A DNA stretch of 64,000 nucleotides from Methanocorpusculum sp. (GTDB taxonomy: Archaea > Halobacteriota > Methanomicrobia > Methanomicrobiales > Methanocorpusculaceae). Positions 1 through 14,598 of the stretch are shown here, in pieces (positions within the stretch are counted from its first letter, which is position 1; each line of letters starts with the position of its first letter). The translations under genes were made by a program, and so were the position numbers. Location of the stretch: NCBI RefSeq assembly GCF_030655665.1, contig NZ_JAUSPQ010000010.1, forward strand, positions 62,001 through 126,000, written 5' to 3'. The notes under the pieces were generated by a model. It was given only the letters and a program-made list of their open reading frames with translations, was not told where the DNA came from and ran no database searches.

Positions 1-52
1 TTCCGCCGGTCACGAGAATCGTTTTATTATTAAGGGACTGCTGGTAACTCAT
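1..52 (-). CDS. NAD-dependent sugar-nucleotide epimerase/dehydratase, N-terminal fragment cut by window edge
   Basis: Only the first 17 residues lie in the window (reverse strand, ATG at 52). They read MSYQQSLNNKTILVTGG, which ends in the beta-strand and glycine-rich start of a Rossmann fold as in extended SDR sugar epimerases or dehydratases (CapD/WbpM/RmlB type). The ATG overlaps the wecB stop by four bases (ATGA), so the gene is translationally coupled to wecB and probably acts in the same sugar-nucleotide pathway. The exact substrate cannot be judged from this fragment. Confidence 0.6.
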   Translation of the reverse strand, partial: MSYQQSLNNKTILVTGG

Positions 53-1155
53 GCTATCTTTGTAATTATATGGAGCACATCGCGTATAATACGTTCTGAA
101 ACACCTGGTTCGCCGAAGGGATTCGGCCATTTTCTTTCTGTATGAAGCATAGCTTCCACAGCATCAAGAATTGATTCAGGTCTGGTTCCGGCAAGAATAT
201 TGGCCCCAATTTGAACCGTTTCCGGGCGTTCAGTATCATCCCGCAGGGTCACACAGGGCGTATGCAAGATGCAGGCCTCCTCCTGCATGGAACCCGAGTC
301 GGTGAGTATAACTGACGCGTGTGTCTCCAACTGAAGAAAATCCATGTAACCAAGCGGCTCTGTTATCAGAATATTTTCCGGGATCAGCTTATGCATCGCA
401 AGCACTTTTTTTGTACGCGGGTGACAGGGAAATATGACCGGATATGCGTACTTTGCAGAGATGAAATCCAGGGTGTTCAGAATCGTTTGCAGTTTGTTCG
501 GACTGTCGGTATTTTCCGGGCGATGGAGGGTAAGCAGGAAGTATTTTTCAGGCTCGAGACTGAGTCGTTGTAAGATGTCAGAGCATACTGCTGCAGTATC
601 CTTGCTGCTGGTGACGACATCGACGATAGGGTCCCCGCTGACGATGATCCGATTATCCGGAATCCCTTCTTTGAGAATATTTTGTCTGGTCCATTCGTTT
701 GGAGTAAACAGGTAATCCGCAATCTGATCGATCATAAGCCGGTTCAGCTCTTCAAGCATGGATCGGTTATAACTCCGTCTTCCGGCTTCGATATGGCAGA
801 CTGGTATGTGAAGCTTTGCGGCTGCAAGGGCCCCGGCAAGGGCTGAGTTGGGGTCGCCGAGAACGAGGACGATGTCCGGCTTTTCTTTGAGCAGGATCTG
901 TTCGATACCTATGAGCATTTTCCCGGTCTGCTCCCCGTGCGGGGCTGAACCGATGTGGAGGTTGTAGCTGGGTTCCGGGAGCTCAAGGTCGTTGAAGATG
1001 AGTGTGTCAAGCTCATAAGAATAATGCTGGCCGGTATGGATAAGCGTGAATGGGATGGTTAGTTTGATGCAGGTCTGGATGAGTGCAGAGAGTTTGATGA
1101 TTTCTGGTCTGGTTCCTAGGATGAATACTATTTTCTTGTATGTTTGATACATCAC
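49..1155 (-). CDS. wecB: UDP-N-acetylglucosamine 2-epimerase (non-hydrolysing)
   Basis: Cytosolic enzyme that interconverts UDP-GlcNAc and UDP-ManNAc for surface glycan synthesis. The 368-residue length is normal for the family. Visible family signatures are FILGTRPEIIKLSAL near residue 11, HTGQHYS near 40, LGDPNSALAGALAA near 98, CHIEAGRRS near 120, LHRPENTD near 211, CHPRTKK near 243, and the C-terminal DSGSMQEEA...TERPE nucleotide-binding segment. It overlaps the next gene downstream (the epimerase fragment) by four bases. It is transcribed away from the glycosyltransferase at 1255 across a 99-bp AT-rich gap. The family assignment is secure; the in vivo sugar product is inferred. Confidence 0.9.
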   Translation of the reverse strand: MMYQTYKKIVFILGTRPEIIKLSALIQTCIKLTIPFTLIHTGQHYSYELDTLIFNDLELPEPSYNLHIGSAPHGEQTGKMLIGIEQILLKEKPDIVLVLGDPNSALAGALAAAKLHIPVCHIEAGRRSYNRSMLEELNRLMIDQIADYLFTPNEWTRQNILKEGIPDNRIIVSGDPIVDVVTSSKDTAAVCSDILQRLSLEPEKYFLLTLHRPENTDSPNKLQTILNTLDFISAKYAYPVIFPCHPRTKKVLAMHKLIPENILITEPLGYMDFLQLETHASVILTDSGSMQEEACILHTPCVTLRDDTERPETVQIGANILAGTRPESILDAVEAMLHTERKWPNPFGEPGVSERIIRDVLHIITKIA

Positions 1156-1254
1156 ATAGCCTCAAAATATGATTCCACTTCGATTAATTCCATCTGTAAT
1201 AGATATTTGTGATTTTCACAATTAATTTATTCTATTGTCGATAATAGATAGTTA
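1156..1254. promoter_or_regulatory. AT-rich divergent promoter region
   Basis: A 99-bp AT-rich gap separates two divergent starts (wecB leftwards, glycosyltransferase rightwards). It contains short inverted repeats (TGTGATTTTCACA near 1208 and an imperfect one near 1231-1246). No box can be assigned with certainty. Confidence 0.35.
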
Positions 1255-2487
1255 ATGAATCTTTTGTTGATATCTCCTGTGTTTCCTCCAGAGATTGGAA
1301 GTTCAGCTCAAATATACTATGATTTGGCAACTGGGTTTTGTAATAAAGGGCATACGGTACATGTTTTAACTTCATACCCCCGGTATTATAACCTCCCTGA
1401 TGATGTCCTGTTATCAAATATCCCGTTAGATGAAACTGATCATGGCATTAATATTCACCGCGTTCAGCATCATGCCCCGGGTGTAGAAAACATGATCCTT
1501 AGGGGGGGTGAACATTTCTATATGCCATTTTTTTATTTTCGGAGATACAAGTCGCTTAGAAAGGAATTGGGCATAAAATTTGATGCGTGTATAATTCATT
1601 CTCCTCCGTTGCCGTTCTGCTATCTTGCTCAATTCATTAAAAAATATGACGGCACACCATCAATTATAAATTATCAGGATTTTCATCCGGGAGAATTAAT
1701 TAAAGCAGGTGTTGTCAAAAACCAACTCTGGATAAAAATACTGGAGCATATTGAACATAAAGCATACACTCAGGCAGATTTTATCACATCTCATTCTCGT
1801 GGGGGTATTGAATATATGGTAGCCCGTGGTGCAAACCCCAATAAAATAGCCAATATATTTAACAGCGTTGACTTAAATGTTCTTGATAATCCAAATATTA
1901 TCAGTGATTACAAACTAAAAGAAAATATTGAGGATAAATATCTCATCTCATTTGCGGGAAGAATCATGTCAGACGGCGGGTATGATCGGATATTAAATGT
2001 TGCGCACAGTTTACAGGATGTAACAGAAATCGTGTTTTATATCGTAGGAAACGGTCCATACAAACAAGAACTAGAACGTCTGATTCATGAAAGAAAGATT
2101 ACAAATATTACGACACGTAACTTCTTACCAAGAGATGAATATATAAATTTAATTAAATCATCGGATTTATCCATTGTTTCATTGGATCAAACTGATTCAT
2201 GTCCTTGTTTCCCTGGAAAAATAATGAATATTATGGCTTTGAAGCGACCTATACTTGCCTTCTTATCATCTGATAGTGATGCTGCCAAAACAATCCTTGA
2301 GGCAAATGCTGGTATAATAATATCTACAGAAACAGTGCCGGAAATCCGGGATAAAATATTAAATCTAAAGGATCATCTGGAGTTATGTATTGAGTATGGA
2401 GAAAAAGGGAGAGAATTCGTGTTAAATAATATGACACTAGATGTTGCAACCTCAAGATACGAAAGTATTATTCAGAATCTGAACTGA
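1255..2487 (+). CDS. Glycosyltransferase family 4 (WbuB-like)
   Basis: A 410-residue GT-B fold glycosyltransferase predicted to move a sugar from a nucleotide donor to a lipid-linked glycan at the inner face of the membrane. The N-terminal acceptor domain starts MNLLLISPVFPPEIG, with the glycine-rich loop typical of WbuB/WcaI-type GT4 enzymes. The C-terminal donor domain begins near residue 230 (FAGRIMSDGGYDRIL), followed by YIVGNGPYKQELE and a C-terminal helix KIMNIMALKRPILAF in place of the usual KxxEYMAxGKPI. The gene is AT-rich compared with the core genes, as is usual for polysaccharide loci. It lies beside wecB and just upstream of a broken insertion sequence. Donor and acceptor are unknown. 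Confidence 0.85.
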   Translation: MNLLLISPVFPPEIGSSAQIYYDLATGFCNKGHTVHVLTSYPRYYNLPDDVLLSNIPLDETDHGINIHRVQHHAPGVENMILRGGEHFYMPFFYFRRYKSLRKELGIKFDACIIHSPPLPFCYLAQFIKKYDGTPSIINYQDFHPGELIKAGVVKNQLWIKILEHIEHKAYTQADFITSHSRGGIEYMVARGANPNKIANIFNSVDLNVLDNPNIISDYKLKENIEDKYLISFAGRIMSDGGYDRILNVAHSLQDVTEIVFYIVGNGPYKQELERLIHERKITNITTRNFLPRDEYINLIKSSDLSIVSLDQTDSCPCFPGKIMNIMALKRPILAFLSSDSDAAKTILEANAGIIISTETVPEIRDKILNLKDHLELCIEYGEKGREFVLNNMTLDVATSRYESIIQNLN

Positions 2488-2587
2488 GAATAACATTCCT
2501 TACGATGAGAGATACTATATGAGAATTTCTAACAACCCTTTTTTTCCCGACAGAAAGTACTTTCTCTCCGTACGTTGAGTAGTATGT

Positions 2588-3588
2588 ATGGGGACTTTCA
2601 GCAGCTTTGGTCTCAACCAGGCATATCACGAACGTTATGAAAAACTTGGCGACCGCCTCTCCGATGTTGGTAAAACACTTGATTGGGATGTTTTTCGTCC
2701 TCTTCTTGAATCCATGTATGCAAATAAATCCGACAAGGGTGGTCATCCCAATGTCGATGTAATACTCATGTTTAAGATTCAGCTTCTGGAAGTCTGGTAT
2801 AATCTGTCTGATCTCGCTGTTGAACGTGAAATTTATGATCGTCTCTCCTTTTGGCATTGTAAGTGAGGGCGTTAGCCCGAAACGGTGAGCAAGATTTTAT
2901 CTTGCGAACTCTCGGGTGTCCTGACAAAATACCCGACAATTCAACGATCTGGTTATTTCGGGAGCGTATGTCCGAATCAGGCGTTGACACAGTGGTTTGG
3001 CAGGAGTTTCAGAGGCAGCTTGACCTGAAAGGTCTCAAAATTGAACAAGGCATGATTCAGGATGCAACGTTTGTGTATGCTGAACCCGGTCATTGTAAGA
3101 AAGACACGCCGCGAGGAGATCAGGCAAAAACACGACGGGATAAAGATGGAAAAATCATGTCCAAGAATGGCAAAATACACTATGGTTATAAACTTCATAC
3201 CATTATGGATACAACGCATGATCTTATTCGACGCATTGAAACCACCACGGCAAATGTTCATGATAGTCAGGTGGATCTGTCAGAAAAAGGGGAAGTGGTC
3301 TATCGGGATCGGGGATATCAGGGAGCAAAATGTAAGGGATATAGTGCCACAATGAAACGGGGAGCGAGAGGACATCCAATTGGAATACGAGATAAACTGA
3401 GAAATATGCGAATAAGTAGGAAGAGATCAAAGGGGGAGAGACCCTATGCAGTGATCAAAAATGTTTTTCATGCAGGGTTGGTGAAGGTAACAACGCTGCA
3501 AAGAGTACGAGTCAAAAATATGCTGGCTGCATTTTGTTATAATATGTATCAGCTAAAGACCATAGATTTGAAGAAGTCAGGAGCGTAA
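2588..3588 (+). pseudogene. IS5-family transposase, split by a small insertion
   Basis: Two frames carry one transposase. Residues from 2588 to 2857 give the N-terminal domain, ending LSFWH. The protein resumes in another frame at about 2911 with LGCPDKIPDNSTIWLFRERM, which continues the IS5 pattern 'LSF..FLGLxxxxxPDxST...R'. The C-terminal part contains the DDE region: IQDATFV, ANVHDSQV, DRGYQG and GERPYAVIKNVF. The junction holds about 50 extra bases with a stop codon and two hairpins. Removing them restores both frame and homology. A second ORF starting at the GTG at 2863 could be translated, but it would lack the N-terminal DNA-binding domain. Confidence 0.85.
2859..2908. repeat. Two-hairpin module inserted in the transposase gene
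   Basis: About 50 bp interrupt the IS5 transposase. The insert contains the hairpin GGGCGTTAGCCC, a linker with GGTGA, and the hairpin GCAAGATTTTATCTTGC followed by GA. This is the same layout as modules elsewhere in the window (18.5, 19.9, 25.0, 34.6, 35.7, 36.0 and 53.0 kb). The exact borders are ambiguous by a few bases because the ends resemble the target. Confidence 0.75.
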
Positions 3589-3927
3589 GCTTTCGAATTT
3601 TTTTAGAAAATAGAGGGGAAAATTAGGGAAATGGTTATGTGAATCTGTTTTTTGGGGGGGGGTGGAAAGGCAAAAGAGATTGGGCGACTTCATCATCTTA
3701 AAAAAAAAGGGTTGGTAGATATTCTCTATATTAAATTTGATGGAACTGTTTTCCTTAATATTTAGGAGAGTTGACATAACTGATATTTTTCATCTGAACG
3801 ATGAAACCGAAAATACAGTTGCATATCTTTTAATGGTTAATTTTTCATTTTCATTTTACTAAACCAACAATAGTAATATCCATTAAATGTAGACATAGGG
3901 CTCATAATATCTGGTGTAATCCCACGA

Positions 3928-4294
3928 TCATACAGACTCTTCCATACACACTACCGCAAACCCCACTGACTCCCTCTCACTATGGGATATGCTGATTTTT
4001 ATCTCATGATCAACATTGTCCAATACATCACAAACACGTGCCCTTGGAACCCCCAGCTGATCCAAAACAACCTCAACATCCCAAAGCCTTATTCTTATGC
4101 CAAATCCCGAAAATGCTTTCACCACAGCCTCTTTTGCTGCAAACCGTGCTGCATAATGTTCGCCATGGGAAGATTGAGAATTGCAGTACTCCTGCTCAGC
4201 CTTGGAAAAAAAACGATCCATAAACTGTTCATCAGCAAGGATGTCCGGACCAAACCGGGAATTTTTATACTATCTCTCCAAATTTCCTCTGCAT
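3928..4294 (-). pseudogene. Holo-ACP synthase-like gene, 5' end frameshifted
   Basis: The intact frame (3928-4221) gives MDRFFSKAEQEYC... and then HYAARFAAKEAVVKAFSG and ISISHSERESVGFAVV. These are the metal- and CoA-binding core and the C-terminal motif of AcpS-type phosphopantetheinyl transferases. A full protein should begin with a GxDIVxIxRF box. In-frame codons upstream give a remnant RFGPDILADEQF, then a stop. An ATG at 4294 in another frame gives MQRKFGEIV. The N-terminal box is therefore present but broken by one or two small indels around 4255-4280, and the metal-ligand Asp is lost. It lies head to head with the intact paralogue at 4323. It may be a dead copy, or be expressed as a truncated form. 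Confidence 0.65.
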
Positions 4295-4322
4295 ATACTT
4301 TTATTCCATACAAAATCGATAT

Positions 4323-4697
4323 ATGAAGTACATGTTCCTATCCGGCGTCGACATAGTCACCATATCCCGCTTCAATGACCCATCCCTACAGAAGCAAACC
4401 TTTCTCAACCTTTGTTTCACCCCCGCCGAACAAACCTACTGCCTCTCTAAAACTGACCCGAGTCCGCACTTCGCCGCACGCTTCGCTGCAAAGGAAGCCG
4501 TCATTAAAGCTCTCTCTGGTCTGGATCTCACCCTTCCCTATAACAAAATAGAAGTCCGCAATCAGCATAATAGTCGTCCCTATCTAAAATTCTATACAGA
4601 CAATGAAGATATTCTCTCCTTGAAATCAGACATAAGCCTTAGCCACTCGGAAACATCTGCCATAGCTGTTGTTATCATATACACCAATGAAAAATAA
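4323..4697 (+). CDS. acpS: Holo-[acyl-carrier-protein] synthase (AcpS-type phosphopantetheinyl transferase)
   Basis: A 124-residue protein of normal AcpS length, expected to transfer 4'-phosphopantetheine from CoA to the serine of an acyl carrier protein. The N-terminal box SGVDIVTISRF holds the Mg-ligand Asp10. FAARFAAKEAVIKAL holds Glu58 and Lys62, and DISLSHSETSAIAVV closes the fold. The carrier protein gene follows 35 bp downstream, so partner and substrate are adjacent. Archaea rarely carry ACP/AcpS pairs, so this probably came from bacteria. The divergent neighbour (3928-4294) is a decayed paralogue. Confidence 0.85.
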   Translation: MKYMFLSGVDIVTISRFNDPSLQKQTFLNLCFTPAEQTYCLSKTDPSPHFAARFAAKEAVIKALSGLDLTLPYNKIEVRNQHNSRPYLKFYTDNEDILSLKSDISLSHSETSAIAVVIIYTNEK

Positions 4698-4732
4698 ACT
4701 ATAAGACAACATAAAGAGAATAACTATCATCT

Positions 4733-4969
4733 ATGTCCAACGTGGAAAAATACAACAATGCTTTCACAGAAGCCTTCGGAATCAATGATTCAAAACTTAT
4801 AGGATTAATATATCAGAGTATTCCTGAATGGGATTCGGTTGGGCACATGAGTTTGATTGCAGCCCTTGAAGATGCCTTTGACATCATGATGGAAACGGAT
4901 GACATCATTGATCTTTCTTCCTATGAAAAAGGAAAAGAAATACTTGCTAAATACGACATTGAATTTTGA
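4733..4969 (+). CDS. Acyl carrier protein
   Basis: A 78-residue acidic protein with the phosphopantetheine attachment motif WDSVGHM; Ser35 is the predicted modified residue. The helix after it (LIAALEDAFDIMMETDDI) and the segment IIDLSSYEKGKEIL match the PP-binding fold of discrete ACPs that accompany specialised pathways. It sits between its likely modifying enzyme (4323) and an AMP-forming ligase (4999). It probably carries the acyl group that the LuxE- and LuxC-like proteins act on. No fatty acid synthase genes are visible, so the cargo is probably not a membrane fatty acid. Confidence 0.88.
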   Translation: MSNVEKYNNAFTEAFGINDSKLIGLIYQSIPEWDSVGHMSLIAALEDAFDIMMETDDIIDLSSYEKGKEILAKYDIEF

Positions 4970-4998
4970 ATAACTCAATGTGCTAATGGTAACCGCCC

Positions 4999-6393
4999 AT
5001 GTCATTTTTCAACTCGCTCGAGAATTACGGACAAAAAACAGCTTTGATAACCGATGATGGTATTGAAGTCGGGTATCAGCAATTAGTGAAGGATGCAGAC
5101 AGAGTTGCCGGTTTCATCACAAAACGCTCTCTGGTATTTTGTGTGTGCAGCAACAACCTCGAGTCAGTTGCCGGATATCTGGGATTTCTGCGTGCTAGAA
5201 TAGTTCCTGTCCTGATCAATCCTGATGTCGACAGAGAGTTGTATTCCGAACTGGAACATACGTATCAGCCCTCCTTCGTGTGGGCACCAAAACAGTTTTC
5301 TGAAAAAGAATGTGTGTACTCATACGGAGCGTATGAACTGACAAAAACCGACTACTATAAAGAACACGACCTCTATCCGGAACTTGCGCTCTTGTTGACG
5401 ACGTCCGGCAGTACCGGAAGCCCAAAATTAGTCCGACAGTCCTACCAAAATATTGAGAGTAACACATATTCAATTATGGAGTATCTGAATATTGCTAGAG
5501 AAGACCGCGCTATAACTACGCTTCCTCTTAGCTATACGTATGGCCTTTCTATTCTTCACACACACCTTACAGCAGGGGCCACCGTAATTCTGACCGATGC
5601 ATCCCTCATGAGCAAGTCGTTCTGGACACTGCTCAAAGATAAGAAGGCGACAACGTTCGGAGGCGTCCCATACACTTACGAGATGCTCAAAAAGCTCAGA
5701 TTTGCACGCATGGATCTGCCGTCCCTCTCTTATGTCACACAGGCGGGAGGCAAGTTGTCCAAAGAACTGTCTCTTGAGTTTGCCACAGTCTGCAAAGAGA
5801 AGGGCATAAAATTCATCGTTATGTACGGCCAGTCTGAAGCTACCGCACGTATGTCCTATCTTCCGTGGGAATATGCCATTTCCAAAGCCGGAAGCATGGG
5901 AATTGCAATCCCACACGGAAAGTTCCGGCTCATTGACGAAACTGAGAATACGATCACTGCTCCCCATATTACCGGGGAGCTTGTTTACGAGGGAGCAAAT
6001 GTCACTCTCGGTTATGCTGATGCCGTGGAAGATCTTGCAAAAGGTGATGAACGGTATGGAGTTCTCCTGACTGGAGATATGGCGGAGATGGATGAGGATG
6101 GATTTTTCTATATTGTCGGCCGCAAAAAAAGATTCTTGAAAATCTACGGCAATCGGGTGAACCTTGATGAGGTCGAGGGTCTGCTGAAATCAAAAGGATA
6201 CGACTGTGCTGTAGGGGGTGTGGATGACCATATGAAGATCTTTGTGACTGATGAAACTAAATGCGAGGAAGTGAGACATTTCGTCAGTGAAAAGACAGGG
6301 CTGAACCCTGCGGCGTTTTCATCAGCTTATATTCCTGCGATTCCGCGGAATGAAGCAGGCAAGGTCCTGTATACCCATCTCGAGGAGGTCTGA
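4999..6393 (+). CDS. AMP-dependent acyl-adenylate-forming ligase
   Basis: A 464-residue ANL-superfamily enzyme predicted to activate a carboxylic acid with ATP, probably for loading on the adjacent ACP. Motifs in order are the P-loop TTSGSTGSPKLVR near residue 132, the A5-like YGQSEATARMSYLP near 276, LLTGDMAEMDEDGFFYIVGR near 354 (A7/A8), the hinge region KKRFLKIYGNRVNLDEVE, and the C-terminal catalytic-lysine motif IPRNEAGKVLY. It is shorter than typical acyl-CoA synthetases and resembles stand-alone ligases of glycan or natural-product loci. Its stop overlaps the start of the LuxE-like gene (TGATG). The substrate acid is unknown. Confidence 0.82.
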   Translation: MSFFNSLENYGQKTALITDDGIEVGYQQLVKDADRVAGFITKRSLVFCVCSNNLESVAGYLGFLRARIVPVLINPDVDRELYSELEHTYQPSFVWAPKQFSEKECVYSYGAYELTKTDYYKEHDLYPELALLLTTSGSTGSPKLVRQSYQNIESNTYSIMEYLNIAREDRAITTLPLSYTYGLSILHTHLTAGATVILTDASLMSKSFWTLLKDKKATTFGGVPYTYEMLKKLRFARMDLPSLSYVTQAGGKLSKELSLEFATVCKEKGIKFIVMYGQSEATARMSYLPWEYAISKAGSMGIAIPHGKFRLIDETENTITAPHITGELVYEGANVTLGYADAVEDLAKGDERYGVLLTGDMAEMDEDGFFYIVGRKKRFLKIYGNRVNLDEVEGLLKSKGYDCAVGGVDDHMKIFVTDETKCEEVRHFVSEKTGLNPAAFSSAYIPAIPRNEAGKVLYTHLEEV

Positions 6394-7472
6394 TGTCAGT
6401 TGTTGAAAAACTGCTCGCAGAGGAGCCGTTCTCTTTGTCCCATGAAGAAAAAAAACAACTGTATGAAAAAGAGCTTGGAAATCTGACAAAGAACAGTTAT
6501 GCAAGTTGCGGTCTCTACAAAAAAATTCTTGACATTCTGGTTTATGATGCATCTGCTGAGCACAAAATAGAAGAGTTCCCGTTTCTGCCGGTTCGTCTGT
6601 TTAAAGAGTATGATCTTTTGAATGTACCGAGGGAGGCAGTGGTAAAAACCATGACCTCATCAGGGACGACAGGACAGAGAGTTTCAAAAATATATCTCGA
6701 CCGGACAACTTCAACAAATCAGACAAAGGTTCTGACAAAAATATGTTCCGAGTTTCTAGGGAATAAGCGCCGCCCAATGCTGATAATCGATTCAAAGTCG
6801 GTATTAAAAGATCGAAATATGTTTTCTGCCCGAGGGGCGGGCATTATTGGCTTTTCAATGCTTGGACGCGGTGCGACATATGCGCTTGATGAGGATCTGC
6901 ATTTGGATTTGGATGCAGTCAATGCATTTTTGGGAAAGTATGCCGGGGAGCCTATCATGCTCTTTGGTTTTACCTCAATTATCTGGGAGCATTTCTTCAA
7001 GGAACTGGAGCGGGTCGACACGAAACTTCCACTCGATGGTGCAGTTGTGATCCATGGCGGGGGATGGAAGAAGCTGATTGATCAGCAGGTGGACAATGAG
7101 ATATTTAAAAAATCTCTTGCCAGCCGCTGCGGAGATATTACGGTCCTGAATTATTACGGCATGGTTGAACAGACCGGATCGATTTTCATGGAGTGTGAGT
7201 GTGGAAGACTGCATGCTTCGAACTACTCGGATGTCATTATCAGGAATCCGGATGATTTTTCCGTTTGCGGGGTTGGAGAGCCGGGTATTGTCCAGTTGGT
7301 CTCACTCCTTCCAGAATCATATCCCGGACACAGCATTTTAACGGAAGATATCGGTGAACTTATCGGAGAGGATGACTGTCCATGCGGCAGGCACGGAAAG
7401 ACATTTGTTATTCATGGCAGAATAAAAAATGCTGAGATCAGGGGGTGCAGTGATACATATGAACGAAAGTAA
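6393..7472 (+). CDS. LuxE-like acyl-protein synthetase
   Basis: A 359-residue member of the LuxE/acyl-protein synthetase family, the partner of LuxC in bacterial fatty-acid reductase complexes. It carries the adenylate-forming signature TMTSSGTTGQRVSKIYLD near residue 88, preceded by FPFLPVRLFKEY and followed by VIHGGGWKKLID and YYGMVEQTGSIFMECECG. The C-terminus has paired cysteines (DDCPCGRHGKTF). It is translationally coupled to the ligase upstream and overlaps the LuxC-like gene downstream. It may take an acyl-AMP or acyl-ACP and hand it to the reductase. The substrate is unknown. Confidence 0.82.
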   Translation: MSVVEKLLAEEPFSLSHEEKKQLYEKELGNLTKNSYASCGLYKKILDILVYDASAEHKIEEFPFLPVRLFKEYDLLNVPREAVVKTMTSSGTTGQRVSKIYLDRTTSTNQTKVLTKICSEFLGNKRRPMLIIDSKSVLKDRNMFSARGAGIIGFSMLGRGATYALDEDLHLDLDAVNAFLGKYAGEPIMLFGFTSIIWEHFFKELERVDTKLPLDGAVVIHGGGWKKLIDQQVDNEIFKKSLASRCGDITVLNYYGMVEQTGSIFMECECGRLHASNYSDVIIRNPDDFSVCGVGEPGIVQLVSLLPESYPGHSILTEDIGELIGEDDCPCGRHGKTFVIHGRIKNAEIRGCSDTYERK

Positions 7473-8646
7473 AATCACCTGGATCGTCGGAAATTCGGTT
7501 CCGAAATACATAGTGTTTGAACCTTATGCTGATGTTGTCTGCAGTTTTCTGAGTGACCTTTCACAGAATCTGCTTAAAAATCAAACAGCGGGTCAGTACC
7601 CTGATATTATTTCGTTTGCATATTTCTGTCGGAAAGCGAACATCCATAAAAAGAAGGAAAATTTTGCAGAGCAGAGGATTCGACTTGGCCGGGGAATAAT
7701 TTTTCACATTGCCCCGTCGAATGTTCCGGTAAATTTTGCATTTTCCTATGTGTTCGGACTGCTTGCAGGTAATGGCAATATTGTCCGTGTTCCATCCAAA
7801 GAATATCCTCATATCGAGATCATCTGCAGTGCAGTTAATCAGGTCCTGGAAGATCCGAAATATGCTGAAATTAAAGCTTCAACTGCTTTTGTCCGTTACG
7901 GCCATGAGGATGAGGTGACAGAATATTTCTCTTCAATCTCTCAGGGAAGGATCATCTGGGGCGGGGATTCAGCGATTGCGTATATCCGTAAGTTTTCTCT
8001 TCCCCCAAGAGGAGTGGATATTGCATTTTCTGATCGTTACTCCTTTGCAGTAATTGATTCCGATGCAGTTTTGAAGGCGGATGAAAAGGAGATGGGGAGA
8101 GTTGCATATGCGTTTTATAATGATACGTATCTGATGGACCAGAATGCCTGTTCTTCTCCGCAGCTTGTTGTCTGGATTGGGGACCATTATCACGAAGCAC
8201 AGCAGCGGTTTTGGCATGCGGTATCTGCAGCAGCAGAAAAGAAGTATACGCTTCAACCGGTGTCTGTGGTTGATAAATTTACGAAGCTTTGTATTGAGGC
8301 GATAGAGAATCCGTATGTGATGAGAGTTACACGCTATGGAAACGTGCTGTATGCTGCTGACTTAAGAGAACTGCCTGATGATGCTGATAAGTTGCGCGGG
8401 ACCTGCGGGTATTTCTATCAATATTTGTGTAAGGATATTGATGCGATTTCCCGCATGGTTAATGAGAAGTATCAGACTCTGGTATATTATGGGCTTTCAC
8501 CGATACAATTATCTGAGTTTGTGGTGAATAATCAGTTGAGAGGGATTGACCGGATTGTTCCCGTTGGTCAGGCGTTGGATATCGATGTTATCTGGGATGG
8601 ATATGATCTGGTTAGAACACTGTCAAGGATCGTGGATGTGAGGTAG
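7459..8646 (+). CDS. LuxC-like acyl-CoA/acyl-protein reductase
   Basis: A 395-residue LuxC-family reductase (aldehyde-dehydrogenase fold) expected to reduce an activated acyl group to an aldehyde with NADPH. Visible are GRGIIFHIAPSNVPVNFAFS with GLLAGNGNIVRVPSKE (nucleotide-binding region), FVRYGHEDEVTEYFS, IIWGGDSAIAYIR, and DQNACSSPQLVVW with the likely catalytic Cys. I start at 7459 because a GGGGGTG ribosome site lies about 12 nt before that ATG. The upstream ATG at 7429 would enlarge the overlap with the LuxE-like gene. The LuxE-LuxC order and coupling support a single complex. Confidence 0.83.
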   Translation: MNESKITWIVGNSVPKYIVFEPYADVVCSFLSDLSQNLLKNQTAGQYPDIISFAYFCRKANIHKKKENFAEQRIRLGRGIIFHIAPSNVPVNFAFSYVFGLLAGNGNIVRVPSKEYPHIEIICSAVNQVLEDPKYAEIKASTAFVRYGHEDEVTEYFSSISQGRIIWGGDSAIAYIRKFSLPPRGVDIAFSDRYSFAVIDSDAVLKADEKEMGRVAYAFYNDTYLMDQNACSSPQLVVWIGDHYHEAQQRFWHAVSAAAEKKYTLQPVSVVDKFTKLCIEAIENPYVMRVTRYGNVLYAADLRELPDDADKLRGTCGYFYQYLCKDIDAISRMVNEKYQTLVYYGLSPIQLSEFVVNNQLRGIDRIVPVGQALDIDVIWDGYDLVRTLSRIVDVR

Positions 8647-8651
8647 AGGCT

Positions 8652-9398
8652 ATGTTATTGAATGGAAAAACGGCGATCATTACGGGTTCAAATCGTGGAA
8701 TAGGTCATACAATTCTTGAGACATTTGCTCGAGAGGGATGCAGTACAATATGGGCTCATGCACGCTGTGAGTCTGTATCTTTTTCAAATGAAGTAAATGT
8801 ATTATCTGAAAAATTTGGGACAGAGATTATCCCCGTTTATTTTGATATGACGGATACGGAATTACTTAGAGAATCTATAAAAAATCTTATCAGATCAAAA
8901 AAAAGGATTGATATTCTGGTAAATAATGCTGGTATTGCACATGGCGGGTTGTTTCAGATGACGCCGGTTCAGCAGATAAAAGATGTATTTGATGTGAATT
9001 TTTTTGCAGGGATGGAAATAACCCAGCTTGTTACACGAATAATGACAAAACAGAAATCAGGATCTATAATTAACATGGCTTCGATATCGGGGATTGATTT
9101 AAAGAAAGGTAATTGTGCATATGGTGTTTCAAAAGCAGCTGTTATTGCCTGGACAAAGACGCTTTCATCAGAATTAGGTTCGTATGGAGTGCGTGTTAAT
9201 GCAGTTGCACCTGGGCTTACGGATACGAGAATGGCGACTTTAATGGAAGAAAATGCGGGAATGGAAATGGTAAACGATTCTGCTTTCAGTAGATTGGGAA
9301 GCCCTCAGGAAATTGCGAATACCGTTTTATTTTTAGCATCAGATTTATCCTCATTTATTAATGGTCAGGTAATCAGAGTAGATGGAGGTCGTAAGTAA
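8652..9398 (+). CDS. Short-chain dehydrogenase/reductase (FabG-like)
   Basis: A 248-residue classical SDR. It has the cofactor loop TGSNRGIG near residue 11, DILVNNAGIAHGG near 91, catalytic Ser in INMASISGID, Tyr and Lys in AYGVSKAAV, and the C-terminal SFINGQVIRVDGG typical of 3-oxoacyl reductase-like enzymes. It starts 5 bp after the LuxC-like stop, in one operon. It would reduce a keto group in the pathway product, plausibly the ketol made by the transketolase. This is inferred from order only; a conventional 3-oxoacyl-ACP reduction is the alternative. Confidence 0.85.
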   Translation: MLLNGKTAIITGSNRGIGHTILETFAREGCSTIWAHARCESVSFSNEVNVLSEKFGTEIIPVYFDMTDTELLRESIKNLIRSKKRIDILVNNAGIAHGGLFQMTPVQQIKDVFDVNFFAGMEITQLVTRIMTKQKSGSIINMASISGIDLKKGNCAYGVSKAAVIAWTKTLSSELGSYGVRVNAVAPGLTDTRMATLMEENAGMEMVNDSAFSRLGSPQEIANTVLFLASDLSSFINGQVIRVDGGRK

Positions 9399-9402
9399 TT
9401 CC

Positions 9403-10233
9403 ATGGATAAGAATGATGTTATAAGCAGATGTACTGCGGCGGCAAAAGAGATGAGAAAAGATGCTCTAACCATGACCTTATGTGCAGGGAATATTGGAGC
9501 TCATGTTGGGGGTGGTCTTTCTATGGTTGAGACTATGGCTGTGTTGTATATGGGGATTATGAAATATGACATTGATATCCCATCAAACGAGCTGCGTGAC
9601 CGTTTTATTCTTAGTAAAGGTCATGGGGTATTAGCCTTGTATACAGCATTAAATCAAGCAGGTTTTATTCCAAAGGAAGATTTGTGGACCTTTAAGATGA
9701 ATGATAGTTATCTCCACGGTCACCCGTCAATGAATCCAGAAATAGGTATTGAGTTCTCAAGTGGGAGTCTCGGTCAGGGTTTATCCCTGGGTGTTGGTGT
9801 ATGTTTAGCCCTCAAAAGAAAAAACAATAACACATCACGGACGTTCGTCTTACTCGGCGATGGGGAATGTGATGAGGGATCAGTATGGGAGGCTGCAGCG
9901 TCTGCATCACACTATAAATTAGATAATCTTGTTGCCATAATCGATAAGAATGGCATCCAATATGATGGACTGACTTCTTCTATCCTCTCAATGGATCCTC
10001 TTGATGAGAAATGGACTGCATTTGGGTGGAATACTTTTGTTGTTGATGGACATGATATCCCACAGTTATATGATGCATTATCTCGTCAGTCGGATAAACC
10101 TCTTGCAATAATTGTTAATACAATAAAGGGAAAAGGTGTGTCATTTATGGAAAACGACCCTAAATGGCATAATTCACGATTAACAAAAGAACAATATGAT
10201 CAAGCTATGAAAGAATTAGGGTGTAATGCATGA
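9403..10233 (+). CDS. Transketolase, N-terminal (thiamine-diphosphate-binding) subunit
   Basis: A 276-residue protein matching the pyrophosphate-binding half of a split transketolase. Visible are ILSKGHGVLALYTAL, the glycine-rich SSGSLGQGLSLGVGVCLAL, the ThDP signature GDGECDEGSVWEAA...NGIQYDG, and NTIKGKGVSFMEN. The ATG at 9382 lies inside the SDR gene; I prefer 9403, since GGAGGT at 9383-9388 could serve as a somewhat distant ribosome site. The stop overlaps the start of the C-terminal subunit (ATGA). Placed after reductases, it may transfer a two-carbon unit onto the aldehyde made by the LuxC-like enzyme. An ordinary pentose role cannot be excluded. Confidence 0.85.
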   Translation: MDKNDVISRCTAAAKEMRKDALTMTLCAGNIGAHVGGGLSMVETMAVLYMGIMKYDIDIPSNELRDRFILSKGHGVLALYTALNQAGFIPKEDLWTFKMNDSYLHGHPSMNPEIGIEFSSGSLGQGLSLGVGVCLALKRKNNNTSRTFVLLGDGECDEGSVWEAAASASHYKLDNLVAIIDKNGIQYDGLTSSILSMDPLDEKWTAFGWNTFVVDGHDIPQLYDALSRQSDKPLAIIVNTIKGKGVSFMENDPKWHNSRLTKEQYDQAMKELGCNA

Positions 10234-11213
10234 CTGAGTATACATCACGCAATATCCGTACCTGGTCAATGCTTGGTTCATGTGGTGCATTTGGAATTGC
10301 TGCCATGGAACTCCCAAATATAGATGATAGATGTGTTGTTCTAACGTCTGATTTATGTACTTATTCCAGTCTTGACAGATTTAAAACAAAATATCCTGAC
10401 CGTTTTTTTAATGTTGGAATTGCTGAGCAGAATATGGTAGGGATTGCCGGTGGTCTTGCAAAAGAGAATTTCATTCCATTTGCTACAACATATGCTACCT
10501 TTGCTGCAACAAGATGTGCTGATCAGGTGCGCGTAAATATGGGTTACATGAAACTTGGGATTAAACTGGTTGGCTTGACAGCTGGTCTCTCGGTTGGAAT
10601 TCTTGGAGCGACTCATATGAGTGTTGAAGATATAGCAGTAATGCGTGCAATTCCAAATATTGTAATATTGTCCCCTGCAGATTGTATGGAATCAATTAAA
10701 GCTGTAATTGCAAGTGCAGAAATAGAATCACCAGTTTATCTCAGATTGTCTGGGACGATGAATAATCCCATTGTATACAAAGAAGATTATAATTTTGAGA
10801 TAGGTAAAGCAATTACACTTCGAGAAGGAGATGATGTTGTCATAATTGCTACGGGAACAATGGTGTACAATTCATGTAGAGCTGCTGAACTTCTGGAAGA
10901 GAAAGGTGTATCATGCAGAGTTATTGATATGCACACAATTAAACCGCTGGATGAAAATGAAGTTCAAAAGGCGTGTAATGCAAAGTTAATTGTCACGGTG
11001 GAGGAGCATAGCATGATCGGTGGACTCGGCGGAGCGGTAGCGGAATGTTTAGCTGGAATGAATAGACATCCTCCATTATTGAGAGTGGGATTGCCGGATA
11101 TATTTATGCATGCGGGAACGTATGAACATTTAGTTGAAAAATGTGGTTTATGTCCCCCATCGATTAGTGACAGTATCTTTCAATATCTGCAATCTGAACA
11201 CTGTAATAGATGA
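10230..11213 (+). CDS. Transketolase, C-terminal (pyrimidine-binding) subunit
   Basis: A 327-residue partner of the preceding gene. It contains the pyrimidine-binding signature FNVGIAEQNMVGIAGGLA with the catalytic Glu, TYATFAATRCADQVRVN, ILGATHMSVEDIAVMRAIPN and the C-terminal domain from GDDVVIIATGTMVYNSC through VTVEEHSMIGGLGG. The start overlaps the N-terminal subunit stop by 4 bp, so the two should be made in equal amounts. Codon use is AT-rich like the rest of the cluster. Confidence 0.85.
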   Translation: MTEYTSRNIRTWSMLGSCGAFGIAAMELPNIDDRCVVLTSDLCTYSSLDRFKTKYPDRFFNVGIAEQNMVGIAGGLAKENFIPFATTYATFAATRCADQVRVNMGYMKLGIKLVGLTAGLSVGILGATHMSVEDIAVMRAIPNIVILSPADCMESIKAVIASAEIESPVYLRLSGTMNNPIVYKEDYNFEIGKAITLREGDDVVIIATGTMVYNSCRAAELLEEKGVSCRVIDMHTIKPLDENEVQKACNAKLIVTVEEHSMIGGLGGAVAECLAGMNRHPPLLRVGLPDIFMHAGTYEHLVEKCGLCPPSISDSIFQYLQSEHCNR

Positions 11214-11230
11214 TTCATTAATGTTCACGT

Positions 11231-12379
11231 ATGAAGATAATAACAATTTACAATAATGATTTACTTGAACCTCTCTTGGATAAAATGGCGAAGTTAACAA
11301 CTGAGGGATTTGGAGATAGTGTTGAATTATGGAGAAAAAGATTTGCTTATTGGTGGAAGGATAACCCCTATCTTACGGATGACATGCCTGCATGTTGGAT
11401 AATTTCTAACGATGAAATGGATGAAATATTTGGGTTTCATGCAAGCATACCTATTTTATTTCAACATGGTGATAAGAAACTTCTTGCTGCGGGAAGTGGG
11501 ACTTTTTATGTGACTCCATCAGCAAGAGGTGCGTTAAGTACTGCTTTAGGGATTCAACCATCACGGCATAAATATGTTGATGTTATGATTTCTACAACAA
11601 CAAATGCCCTATCACATAAAATGATTTGCTCAATGGGGTATCGCCGTGTAGGAAATATGGATACAATTACGAATTACATGATAATTGTATGTTGCAGAGA
11701 TTTTCTCTCAATGATCTCGTATTTGGCAAATCACTTTATGATATCTGAAACGGGAATGCGTAAAAAACTCTTATCCATAATGCAGGCATCATGTAATGCT
11801 ATATCTAGAGTAATTCCAAAAAGGAAGATAAAGAGTGTCCCAGCTCTTACGTCATCAACAACCCATTATCTCCACATATGCCACGATTCATCCGCCTTCA
11901 TGCAGTATCTCCACCTCCACAAAAAAGGTGACACCATCGAACTCTCCAAAGACAAAACCACCCTTGACTGGATCCTCTTCTCACCTGAAGTACAGGCTCT
12001 CCTTCACCGGACAACCGCACAGATATTCACCAAAACCGGAGAATACTGCGGATACTTCATCTACGACATCCAGCACGTTGGAAAAGACACGACCCTTCGC
12101 ATACGCGAACTCCAGCTCCTGAAACCTGAAGATGCCGTCATAAAACTCATCCTCAAACACGCAAAGATCGAAGCGAAAAATGCAGGCTGTGCGGCGGTCT
12201 ATTCCGGTCTGCAGAACCCCGACCCTGCAGTCGACAAACTCCTGCATAAACACATACTCCTGTCTCTTAAAACCGACAACAGATATTATGTTAAATTCCG
12301 GAAAAATGTGATCACTGATGTCGACCCTTACAGTATCTATGTTCCATCTGATCTGGATCCTGATGTGGGATTTATCTGA
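11231..12379 (+). CDS. GNAT-like acyltransferase, composition-mosaic gene
   Basis: A 382-residue protein whose layout (residues 1-150 with LTTEGFGDSVELWRKRF, WIISNDEMDEIFGFHASIPI and FYVTPSARG; a second alpha/beta part near residues 260-350) suggests one or two GNAT/FemAB-type acyltransferase domains. I cannot name a family member. It begins 17 bp after the transketolase and is probably the last operon gene, perhaps acylating an amino sugar. The base composition changes abruptly near 11835: before it, third codon positions are A/T-rich; after it, they are strongly C-rich. The gene may be a fusion or recombination product. Confidence 0.55.
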   Translation: MKIITIYNNDLLEPLLDKMAKLTTEGFGDSVELWRKRFAYWWKDNPYLTDDMPACWIISNDEMDEIFGFHASIPILFQHGDKKLLAAGSGTFYVTPSARGALSTALGIQPSRHKYVDVMISTTTNALSHKMICSMGYRRVGNMDTITNYMIIVCCRDFLSMISYLANHFMISETGMRKKLLSIMQASCNAISRVIPKRKIKSVPALTSSTTHYLHICHDSSAFMQYLHLHKKGDTIELSKDKTTLDWILFSPEVQALLHRTTAQIFTKTGEYCGYFIYDIQHVGKDTTLRIRELQLLKPEDAVIKLILKHAKIEAKNAGCAAVYSGLQNPDPAVDKLLHKHILLSLKTDNRYYVKFRKNVITDVDPYSIYVPSDLDPDVGFI

Positions 12380-12390
12380 ACAGCACCCGA

Positions 12391-13326
12391 TTATTTTTTC
12401 CGGAATATATTCATCACATATTTCACAAAATACAGCGGCATGCGCAGACTGTACTCGGCCGCATTCCCGTCGATCACCGCCATATCCCTGCTGGACGAAA
12501 ACGTATGAAACGCCTTTGCATACGGTGCATACCCGGGCAGGATCGATACGACCGACTCAGAAAACTCCTCGCGTGTTAACGTGTCGATGCGCATAATGGC
12601 GAGCTCTCCGCCATAGGTACGTGAACAGTCCTGTGTCGGGCGGTAGAGGACCCCCTCGTGAACAAACGGCCTTCCTCCGTCACGTGCAATAGACGTGTCA
12701 TAGAGAATAGGATTCATCGGATGCGGCGTCCATGTGCCAAGCGGATCCTCCGCATACCATATCTCGAGTTTTTGCTCAGCATCCCGATGCAGAGAAGAAT
12801 ACGGCGTTACAAACAGCCACCAAAGACCCCCGTGATGGAAGATCACCGGGTCGATCCCTTGGTAATCCGGAAGAACAACTGCTGCCTTCTCCCAGCGGTC
12901 AGGGCTTCCATCCGCACGGTAAACTGCTAACTCGCCGGACTGGAAGTTCTCAGGGATCATATAAAGCCCTCCCTCATACTCAAAAAGATACGGATAGGAA
13001 AAATGAGTTTCTCCCTCAAGAGCCGTATGCACGTACGGCTCGATGTCCTCTGCATGCCTGCAGACGTCAGCGGCAGACACATAGGAAATTATCCCGGTTC
13101 CGCGTTTCGACTCCCAGTTTTCAAAAAAAATCAGGGGTTCGCCGAAATAGCGGGTTATAAAACAGTCGGCATAGAAGTTGTACTTGTCCTGCGGCTTGAA
13201 CCAGAGGATATGTTGAAATCGTTTATGTAAAATATCGCCGGGAGCATAATCGGGGATAAGCCCAATGGCCCAGCGTGGATTTACGAGTGTTTTTCTTGCA
13301 TCATCAAGGGGTTTTGGAAGCATCAT
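12391..13326 (-). CDS. Beta-propeller protein like the N-terminal domain of glucosamine inositolphosphorylceramide transferase (GINT1)
   Basis: A 311-residue protein made of repeated blade-like segments: HFSYPYLFEYEGGLYMIPEN, GIDPVIFHHGGLWWLFVTP, DGGRPFVHEGVLYRPTQDCS and YGGELAIMRI. This resembles the GH43-like five-bladed propeller of the GINT1 N-terminal family (family knowledge, from memory). No signal peptide is seen, so a cytosolic role in glycan assembly or modification is likely. It is convergent with the acyltransferase-like gene (11 bp gap) and co-oriented with the GT2 gene at 13639. The catalytic role is unknown. Confidence 0.6.
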   Translation of the reverse strand: MMLPKPLDDARKTLVNPRWAIGLIPDYAPGDILHKRFQHILWFKPQDKYNFYADCFITRYFGEPLIFFENWESKRGTGIISYVSAADVCRHAEDIEPYVHTALEGETHFSYPYLFEYEGGLYMIPENFQSGELAVYRADGSPDRWEKAAVVLPDYQGIDPVIFHHGGLWWLFVTPYSSLHRDAEQKLEIWYAEDPLGTWTPHPMNPILYDTSIARDGGRPFVHEGVLYRPTQDCSRTYGGELAIMRIDTLTREEFSESVVSILPGYAPYAKAFHTFSSSRDMAVIDGNAAEYSLRMPLYFVKYVMNIFRKK

Positions 13327-13638
13327 CTGCGGGGTCTCCGATATTCTGAACGCAGATCTTCAAGCAGCGCAACAACAATGAAGAGATCATGCAGCTTAAA
13401 TGAAGAAACACAGTATTCAGTTTTGATTATTCTCAATAGATATTGACCGCGAAATTTATAAAAGAGAGCCGTCATTGGATGCTGTACTATGTGATATCAT
13501 AAATCAGCTCGATACATCCTGCTTACAAAAACAGAAATCGAACAGCATTTCCAAAAGCAGGATTGGGTGCTTTACATCACCGGACAATGGAGCAAAGCAT
13601 GATGATTGCCGAATAGGGTCCGGGCACGATATATATTG
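13327..13638. other. 312-bp intergenic region, no gene recognised
   Basis: AT-rich in the middle with a TATA-like stretch (AATTTATAAAAG near 13454-13465, readable on either strand) that could serve the propeller gene to its left. No RNA gene or repeat unit recognised. Confidence 0.4.
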
Positions 13639-14598
13639 TCACTCCCTCCCCACCATCTGTATCATCTGCGCCACCGCATACAAAATCACCGCAACACAGC
13701 AGAGCAGCATCCCCATCATCAGCATCATCATCGAGACGAGTGTGATCGTCGGGGACCAGGCGCCGGTCTGCACTGAAATCAAAAGCGCCTGATAGGCGAG
13801 AAAGACCCCGATGATCAGAATGATCAGCCCGGGGATCCCGAACGCCGTCACCGGCCGCCTGATCGTTACAAATCGTAACACATTCATCAGGACCGTGATC
13901 CCGTGCCTGAACGGATTCTGCGAGCTCGTGCCGTCGATATCATACCGCACTTTGATCGGGATCTCCCCGACCTTCAGACGGTGATCGCTCATCTGCACAA
14001 GGATCTCGGAGCCGGCAGACATGCCTTTTCCCGACGGATGGATCACCATATACGCACTCTTCGCATATGCCCGGTAGCCGCACTGCGAATCGCTCACGCG
14101 GATGTTTCCGGCTGCCATCAGCGTTGCACGGTCGAGAACCTTCATCCCGAGCTTCCGGTAACCGGGAATCATATCCTTACTTGACGTCTCCAGAAACCGT
14201 GAGCCGATGACAACATCATACCCCTCCATGATCTTTTCAACGAACCGGGGAACATCCTTCGGGTCGTGCTGACCGTCGGAGTCGATGATGATCAGAATAT
14301 CAGGCTTGTATTTCTGTGCAGTCAGAAAGATCGTACGCAGAGCCCCGCCGTATCCCTGATTGATCCGGTGACGGATAACGACCGCACCAGCCTCTTCAGC
14401 AGCAGCTATGGTATTGTCCTTCGATCCGTCATCTACGACAACGACCACGTCAGCAAACGGCTTCACAGCAGCAACTGTGGCGCCCACACGATCCTGCTCG
14501 TTATAGGCAGGCATCGCAACCATTACGGAAGGCTTTTCAGAGAGGGGGTCCTGACTGGGTATAGAAAAATGAGAAGTTGTTGTATCGTTGTTGGCCAC
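13639..14598 (-). CDS. Glycosyltransferase family 2, dolichyl-phosphate-sugar synthase type with C-terminal membrane anchor
   Basis: A 319-residue GT-A enzyme expected to move a sugar from a nucleotide onto dolichyl phosphate at the cytoplasmic membrane face. The N-terminal catalytic domain has VMVAMPAYNEQDRVG, VVVVVDDGSKDNT, INQGYGGALRTIFL and the metal-binding DSDGQHDPKDV, then VIGSRFLE and DSQCGYRAYAK. Two membrane spans close the protein: FGIPGLIILIIGVFLAYQAL and LVSMMMLMMGMLLCCVAVIL. This layout matches DPM1/AglJ-like enzymes of archaeal N-glycosylation, though the sugar is unknown. Confidence 0.88.
   Translation of the reverse strand: MANNDTTTSHFSIPSQDPLSEKPSVMVAMPAYNEQDRVGATVAAVKPFADVVVVVDDGSKDNTIAAAEEAGAVVIRHRINQGYGGALRTIFLTAQKYKPDILIIIDSDGQHDPKDVPRFVEKIMEGYDVVIGSRFLETSSKDMIPGYRKLGMKVLDRATLMAAGNIRVSDSQCGYRAYAKSAYMVIHPSGKGMSAGSEILVQMSDHRLKVGEIPIKVRYDIDGTSSQNPFRHGITVLMNVLRFVTIRRPVTAFGIPGLIILIIGVFLAYQALLISVQTGAWSPTITLVSMMMLMMGMLLCCVAVILYAVAQMIQMVGRE

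Follow-up and report, generated by a model that had tools for sequence, protein, structure and literature searches.

In the flagellin glycosylation islands of Aeromonas (group II) and Enterobacteriaceae, a five-function set of acyl carrier protein (ACP), FabG-like reductase, AMP-forming ligase, LuxE and LuxC has been described (PMC7874193, PMC4875605), and a flagellar-region insert of Dickeya zeae EC1 (W909_12275-12315), published in 2015, contains LuxC, LuxE, ligase, the transketolase (TK) genes TktA and TktB, two FabG, ACP and an O-acetyltransferase (PMC4522980). In Vibrio cholerae, RfbL and RfbK load a hydroxy acid with which perosamine is then acylated (PMC12208996, PMC3441752), and in azinomycin biosynthesis a two-chain TK, AziC5/C6, extends N-acetyl-glutamate semialdehyde by two carbons (C2) (PMC9570651). 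Here we analyzed a 64,000-nt stretch (hereafter the window) of the 1.81-Mb genome of Methanocorpusculum sp., a methanogen, in which a run of nine genes at positions 4323-12379 carries the five functions contiguously, together with a holo-ACP synthase (AcpS), both halves of a split TK and a 382-aa probable acyltransferase. With a probability of about 0.5, we read this run as a cassette of two modules whose product would be an unusual acyl group destined for a surface glycan, formed by the steps described below.

The nine frames, all on the + strand, are intact with one stop each, and they overlap or are separated by gaps of at most 35 bp (Table 1). A preceding sequence-only reading of this DNA had named AcpS, ACP, ligase, LuxE, LuxC, a short-chain dehydrogenase/reductase (SDR) and the two TK halves, and these calls were borne out by the frames and by Pfam, or by motif and fold in the case of the ACP. 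Pfam search of the ACP gave no match; its WDSxxH motif with Ser35 is invariant among eight homologues, and its confident model (pLDDT 85) retrieved acyl carrier proteins as almost all of the best Foldseek matches. The ACP has its partner, AcpS, in the same run, and PF01648 matched only twice in the whole genome, namely the intact AcpS and a decayed copy. In LuxE, the acyl-accepting C-terminal Cys is kept (as the invariant C352, which aligns with the Cys at 364 in LuxE of structure 7xc6), and in LuxC the nucleophile C241 is invariant in an ACSSP motif and aligns to LuxC of 7xc6. By Pfam search, the run holds no ketosynthase or dehydratase that would accompany ACP in a type II fatty acid synthase. 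An α-amino acid was considered as the ligase substrate and thought unlikely from motif reading alone, the expected Asp motif being read as LPLSYTYGLS.

The sequence-only reading had proposed a search for the same gene order in archaea and bacteria, and the order proved to be conserved in both. Among 199 genomes of the order, LuxE (counted at E <= 1e-15) was found in 14 and the TK N-terminal half (TKN) in 15, and the two co-occurred in six (the window genome, G233, G344, G470, G408 and G432; Fisher p = 1e-4). In all six, LuxE and TK lie in one run with the order AcpS-ACP-ligase-LuxE-LuxC-SDR(-SDR)-TKN-TKC (TKC, the C-terminal half), with the qualification that the short ACP was missed by similarity in some of them and that no SDR was called in G408. 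Seven more genomes (G056, G248, G159, G407, G410, G451 and G465, the last one twice) have the AcpS-LuxC core plus one SDR without TK, and the other split TKs of the order lie in different sugar gene clusters without LuxE. AcpS was present in 13/13 genomes of the order with the core (p = 2e-10). In total, AcpS was found in 41/199 genomes, 28 of them without LuxE, so that the general statement that archaea normally lack ACP chemistry does not describe this order, where it is not rare; ACP-dependent acylation may be common in these methanogens. Some of the LuxE-free AcpS genomes (L178-L181, L183-L185) showed runs of ligase, AcpS or ACP, and an acyltransferase of the 382-aa type.

Scanning of named genomes with the LuxE alignment, followed by profile annotation of the neighbours, gave 79 loci (10 archaeal, 69 bacterial). 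When these were pooled with the archaeal loci above and duplicates were removed, TK halves adjoined LuxE in 33 of about 88 distinct loci (6 archaeal, 27 bacterial), a lower bound since some contigs end early; in one case a TK half stood alone on a short contig. The TK-containing bacteria include Gastranaerophilales, Clostridia, Alphaproteobacteria, Selenomonadaceae, Kurthia zopfii, Epulopiscium and others, and one instance is on a plasmid (Rhizobium anhuiense pRA_T24_2). The bacterial SDR-TK block stands either upstream of ACP, with SDR-TKN-TKC-ACP-ligase-LuxE-LuxC as the order in many bacteria, or downstream of luxC, so that the gene set is permuted but linked. We had considered the cassette as an archaeal peculiarity and rejected this because its relatives are mostly bacterial. 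AcpS was near the cassette in 9/10 archaeal versus 0/69 bacterial named loci; archaea import AcpS along with ACP while bacteria already own one, which implies that the cassette works with holo-ACP. Genes similar to ketoacyl-ACP synthase III (KAS III) and a distinct SDR clade were observed beside the cassette in bacterial loci L085, L086, L088, L101, L105, L107 and L108; the KAS III-like neighbours, which occur only in some bacterial relatives, suggest longer acyl chains in those clusters. No LuxE was found in IMG/VR viral contigs, where it would have indicated carriage by phages.

The 33 LuxE-linked TKs formed one exclusive clade (support 99/99), which remained exclusive after addition of 82 unlinked split TKs (67 viral and 15 others) and in which archaea occupy three places. 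The TK halves are thus not housekeeping pentose enzymes, a relationship that the sequence-only reading had named as fatal to its pathway; a housekeeping TK was rejected by the tree and also because the other listed genomes of the same genus have no such TK. In an IMG/VR scan, the split TK N-half was also observed on 80 viral contig loci (L186-L265), most with the C-half and none linked to LuxE. Regarding the active site, the thiamine diphosphate (ThDP) and proton-relay residues H26, H66, H100, H261, E411 and H473 (E. coli numbering) are kept. Across the linked TKs, E411, H261 and H473 are kept in 35/35, and H461, D469 and R520, which recognize the phosphate and hydroxyls of pentose phosphates, are lost in 35/35 (the R520 column of the alignment being uncertain by one position); H461 and D469 are kept in L052, L053, L055 and L157. 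The window pair reads S385Y, H461T, D469L and R520G. In E. coli, a TK that had been evolved to take aromatic and non-phosphorylated aldehydes has the changes S385Y/D469T/R520Q (PMC5073344), i.e. D469 and R520 are two of the three engineered positions, and S385Y of the window is the identical change at the third. In addition, a split TK is known to take bulky aldehydes (PMC7661550).

Comparison with the same-genus genome G407, which has no TK, shows where the cassette is divided. The AcpS-LuxC core is 94% identical at the DNA level from 4356 to 8645 (94–97% for the proteins), and the match stops exactly at the luxC stop, after which G407 has a different SDR and the window has an SDR-TK module resembling gut-bacterial ones. 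The SDR and TK of the window share their nearest relatives (Gastranaerophilales and alphaproteobacterial modules), the nearest SDRs being themselves TK-adjacent (L074/L077). From the identity ending at the luxC stop and this common source of SDR and TK we conclude, on sequence grounds, that SDR-TKN-TKC is a separate module exchanged behind luxC, and the break looks as if the LuxC product were a branch point. The G+C content is 44% for the core and 39% for SDR-TK, against 52% in a remote part of the window, which likewise suggests foreign and separate origins of the two. In the LuxE tree, built by a quick method and with some long branches, archaea fall in two places, and the window, G407 and G233 lie inside a bacterial group. 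The transfer from bacteria that had been suspected earlier is clear, with LuxE inside this group and SDR-TK nearest to bacterial modules, and we read the cassette as horizontally acquired and made of two modules. The TKs of the sister G233 come from another part of the linked clade than those of the window, and TK presence requires 17 changes on the LuxE tree, a number inflated by loci with incomplete contigs; pairing of LuxE and TK was repeated and independent, with at least three archaeal entries.

These results bear on two other explanations. In the first, TK would have nothing to do with the Lux proteins and would make a nucleotide sugar that is branched or extended by C2, the genes being neighbours merely through the glycan island. 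Two-chain TK-like enzymes do make branched sugars in other systems, and split TKs of other clades lie in archaeal glycan clusters and on viral contigs without LuxE; on the other hand, the single clade of LuxE-linked TKs is absent from the unlinked samples and the pairing recurred independently, which makes this explanation quite improbable. In the second, TK and SDR would act upstream to build a hydroxylated acid from central metabolites, the ligase would load it, and LuxE-LuxC would act later or on another acid. The bacterial order with SDR-TK ahead of ACP would suit such a pathway, but the module boundary exactly behind luxC in the archaeal pair and the ligase and LuxE sequences, which barely change with TK presence, make it distinctly unlikely.

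As to the acyl acceptor, the run lies in a surface-glycan locus, with GT4, UDP-GlcNAc 2-epimerase, GT2 and a legionaminic operon nearby. This operon (LegB, LegC, nucleotidyltransferase, NeuB, NeuC, two oxidoreductases and cytidylyltransferase) is common to G407 and the window genome at 93% DNA identity, and the position taken in the window genome by the NeuD acetyltransferase is occupied in G407 by AcpS-ACP-ligase-LuxE-LuxC-SDR and a different NeuD-family acyltransferase. On the simplest reading, the cassette would supply an acyl group in place of acetyl. Alongside the swapped NeuD, NeuB (L068:5937-6935) differs in its N-terminal half, with 56–64% identity there versus 93–100% in the remainder, possibly a co-adaptation to the altered N-acyl group. 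Because the core replaces NeuD in G407, what the cassette makes is most likely not a sugar but an N-acyl group of an unusual kind, to be placed on an amino sugar. The sequence-only reading had derived a sugar-like substituent through acid, aldehyde and ketol; TK acting on the LuxC aldehyde is still the best reading, whereas the sugar-like unit gives way to the acyl substituent indicated by the NeuD swap.

The same evidence bears on a route in which the ligase loads a monocarboxylic acid on ACP first, LuxE-LuxC release a free aldehyde, TK and SDR convert it into a deoxy-ketose or polyol that serves as a sugar-like unit, and acetylation of this unit is all that the last gene does. We regard this as rather unlikely. 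The ligase stays linked to LuxE and LuxC, and the sisters with and without TK have almost the same ligase pocket, as would be expected if the ligase acted before the branch; but the core replaces an N-acetyltransferase, ligase and acyltransferase occur with AcpS or ACP without LuxE/LuxC, and the conserved set holds no kinase or nucleotidyltransferase for a new sugar. The earlier call of an acyltransferase-like last gene was upheld as probable: the 382-aa protein has no family match of its own, its relatives match GNAT weakly, and its low-confidence model resembles tandem-GNAT N-acyltransferases. Its family adjoins a ligase in G154, G169, G183, G404 and G405 (AcpS within a few kb in each), and a ligase and ACP in G414, in all cases without LuxE. 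A GNAT or hexapeptide-repeat acyltransferase was found within 6 kb in 27/33 TK-containing loci (window's own not counted) by a rough test of text patterns and profiles.

In the two-module cassette that we favour, the first module (AcpS-ACP-ligase-LuxE-LuxC) would activate a small and probably dicarboxylic acid by forming a thioester, and would reduce one carboxyl to an aldehyde. The second module (SDR-TK) would add a C2 ketol to this aldehyde by the two-chain TK and reduce the ketone by the SDR; the remaining carboxyl would stay bound as acyl-ACP until the 382-aa acyltransferase transfers it to an amino sugar. In versions without TK, the aldehyde would simply be reduced to an alcohol. The ligase and LuxE, both adenylating, suggest two activations. 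The timing of the ligase is the least certain point: we lean toward its acting last, as favoured by the LuxE-free sets of AcpS/ACP, ligase and acyltransferase and by V. cholerae RfbL, which is said to activate the finished hydroxy acid (PMC12208996). Action before the branch would be favoured by pocket motifs that are identical or conservatively changed between the window and G407 (positions assigned by our own reading).

Several points weigh against this scheme. The chemical steps, the acid, the C2 donor, the acceptor sugar and the timing of the ligase (before LuxE-LuxC, after, or both) are all inferred. The pocket is the same in sisters with and without TK, though a ligase acting last would suggest a difference; the NeuD replacement is seen in the TK-less relative G407 and not in the window; and the acyltransferase model is of low confidence (pLDDT 62). 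H461 or D469 is also lost in many viral split TKs without LuxE, so that the altered pocket argues against pentose phosphates and not specifically for the LuxC aldehyde; taking it as proof of that acceptor was rejected as too strong. More generally, and slightly less confidently than for the window itself, we propose that small acids bound to ACP or LuxE are reduced by LuxC and C2-ketol-extended by a dedicated two-chain TK, so that surface amino sugars receive polyhydroxylated acyl groups, an undescribed logic widespread in gut bacteria and transferred several times to archaea.

Table 1. Genes of the run and neighbouring features in the window.
Feature	Position	Strand	Basis
AcpS, holo-ACP synthase	4323..4697	+	PF01648 68.5 bits
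Acyl carrier protein, Ser35	4733..4969	+	WDSxxH motif; AlphaFold/Foldseek ACP fold
AMP-forming acyl ligase	4999..6393	+	PF00501 155.8 bits
LuxE-type acyl-protein synthetase	6393..7472	+	PF04443 171.3 bits, E 4e-50
LuxC-type thioester reductase	7429..8646	+	PF05893 98.9 bits, E 4e-28
SDR reductase of SDR-TK module	8652..9398	+	adh_short families
TK N-terminal half, ThDP binding	9382..10233	+	PF00456 145.6 bits
TK C-terminal half	10230..11213	+	PF02779, PF02780
382-aa probable tandem-GNAT-like acyltransferase	11231..12379	+	GNAT-like fold, low-confidence model
Decayed second AcpS copy	3928..4221	-	PF01648 E 2e-11, from residue 1 at profile position 23
GINT1_N-type protein, possible acyltransferase partner	12391..13326	-	PF24793 154.6 bits

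Upstream of the run, a transposase, of which the genome has no other full-length copy, was observed at 2588-3588 as two overlapping frames. It adjoins the decayed acpS copy, which the sequence-only reading had not named and which has diverged from the intact AcpS and gave no intact N-terminus in a three-frame reading, the N-terminus having been lost to a frameshift. A transposase next door and a decayed acpS could mean that the island is silent or in decay and yields no working product in this strain, but this is very improbable given nine intact frames with catalytic motifs and the close identity of the core proteins to those of the sister genome. Downstream, homologues of the GINT1_N-type protein adjoin the 382-aa acyltransferase family in G419 and G414 (loci L182 and L183; 42–46% identity).

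If the proposal is true, glycan substituents would gain a new class and TK a new role, acting on a carrier-activated aldehyde made by LuxC; the gene sets that are annotated as fatty acid biosynthesis in many flagellar and surface-glycan loci of bacteria would acquire a function. It would also mean that archaea import ACP chemistry together with the AcpS it needs, and the presence of a split TK and LuxE in the same run would mark, at the genome level, a predictable modification directly testable by mass spectrometry. The interest lies in this wide, coherent and testable set, not in the archaeal host.

Among known systems, the LuxCDE bioluminescence reductase shares the LuxE/LuxC families and their catalytic cysteines with the window, but the window proteins score far below the NCBIfam bioluminescence equivalog cut-offs and have no long-chain context, and neither LuxD nor the luciferase LuxAB was found among the genes at 49-14598. 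In azinomycin and vazabitide biosynthesis, which offers a direct precedent for the chemistry of our proposal, an acid is activated, reduced to an aldehyde and C2-extended by a two-chain TK; unlike in the window, this proceeds through an acyl phosphate and an N-acetyl or amino-group carrier, not ACP/LuxE/LuxC, and an aminotransferase comes next (PMC9570651). The window run lacks an amino-group carrier with RimK-type ligase and an acyl-phosphate reductase. One locus resembling vazabitide/azinomycin sets was observed on the plasmid pSALBX2 of Streptomyces sp. CL7 (L162: two-chain TK, aminotransferase, RimK-type ligase and a small unannotated protein), and its TK falls outside the LuxE-linked clade. 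We know of no TK in the rfb tetronate set of V. cholerae O1, whose RfbN we take to be LuxE/LuxC-like. There, as proposed here, a carrier (RfbK) and a ligase (RfbL) activate a hydroxy acid, which then N-acylates an amino sugar (PMC12208996, PMC3441752).

The TK-less core of the cassette is already known from bacterial flagellin and O-antigen loci. Our literature search, which reached few subscription journals, found no functional account of the TK-containing set and no listing beyond Dickeya. The flagellin islands, like the window, combine the five functions within a glycan locus, there next to pse or glycosyltransferase genes; unlike the window, no TK halves or dedicated AcpS are mentioned, and the product was read as a fatty acid or liposugar. 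The Dickeya zeae EC1 insert has the full TK-containing set, as in the window, but it is bacterial, does not list AcpS, and lies between flagellar genes with the label fatty acid biosynthesis.

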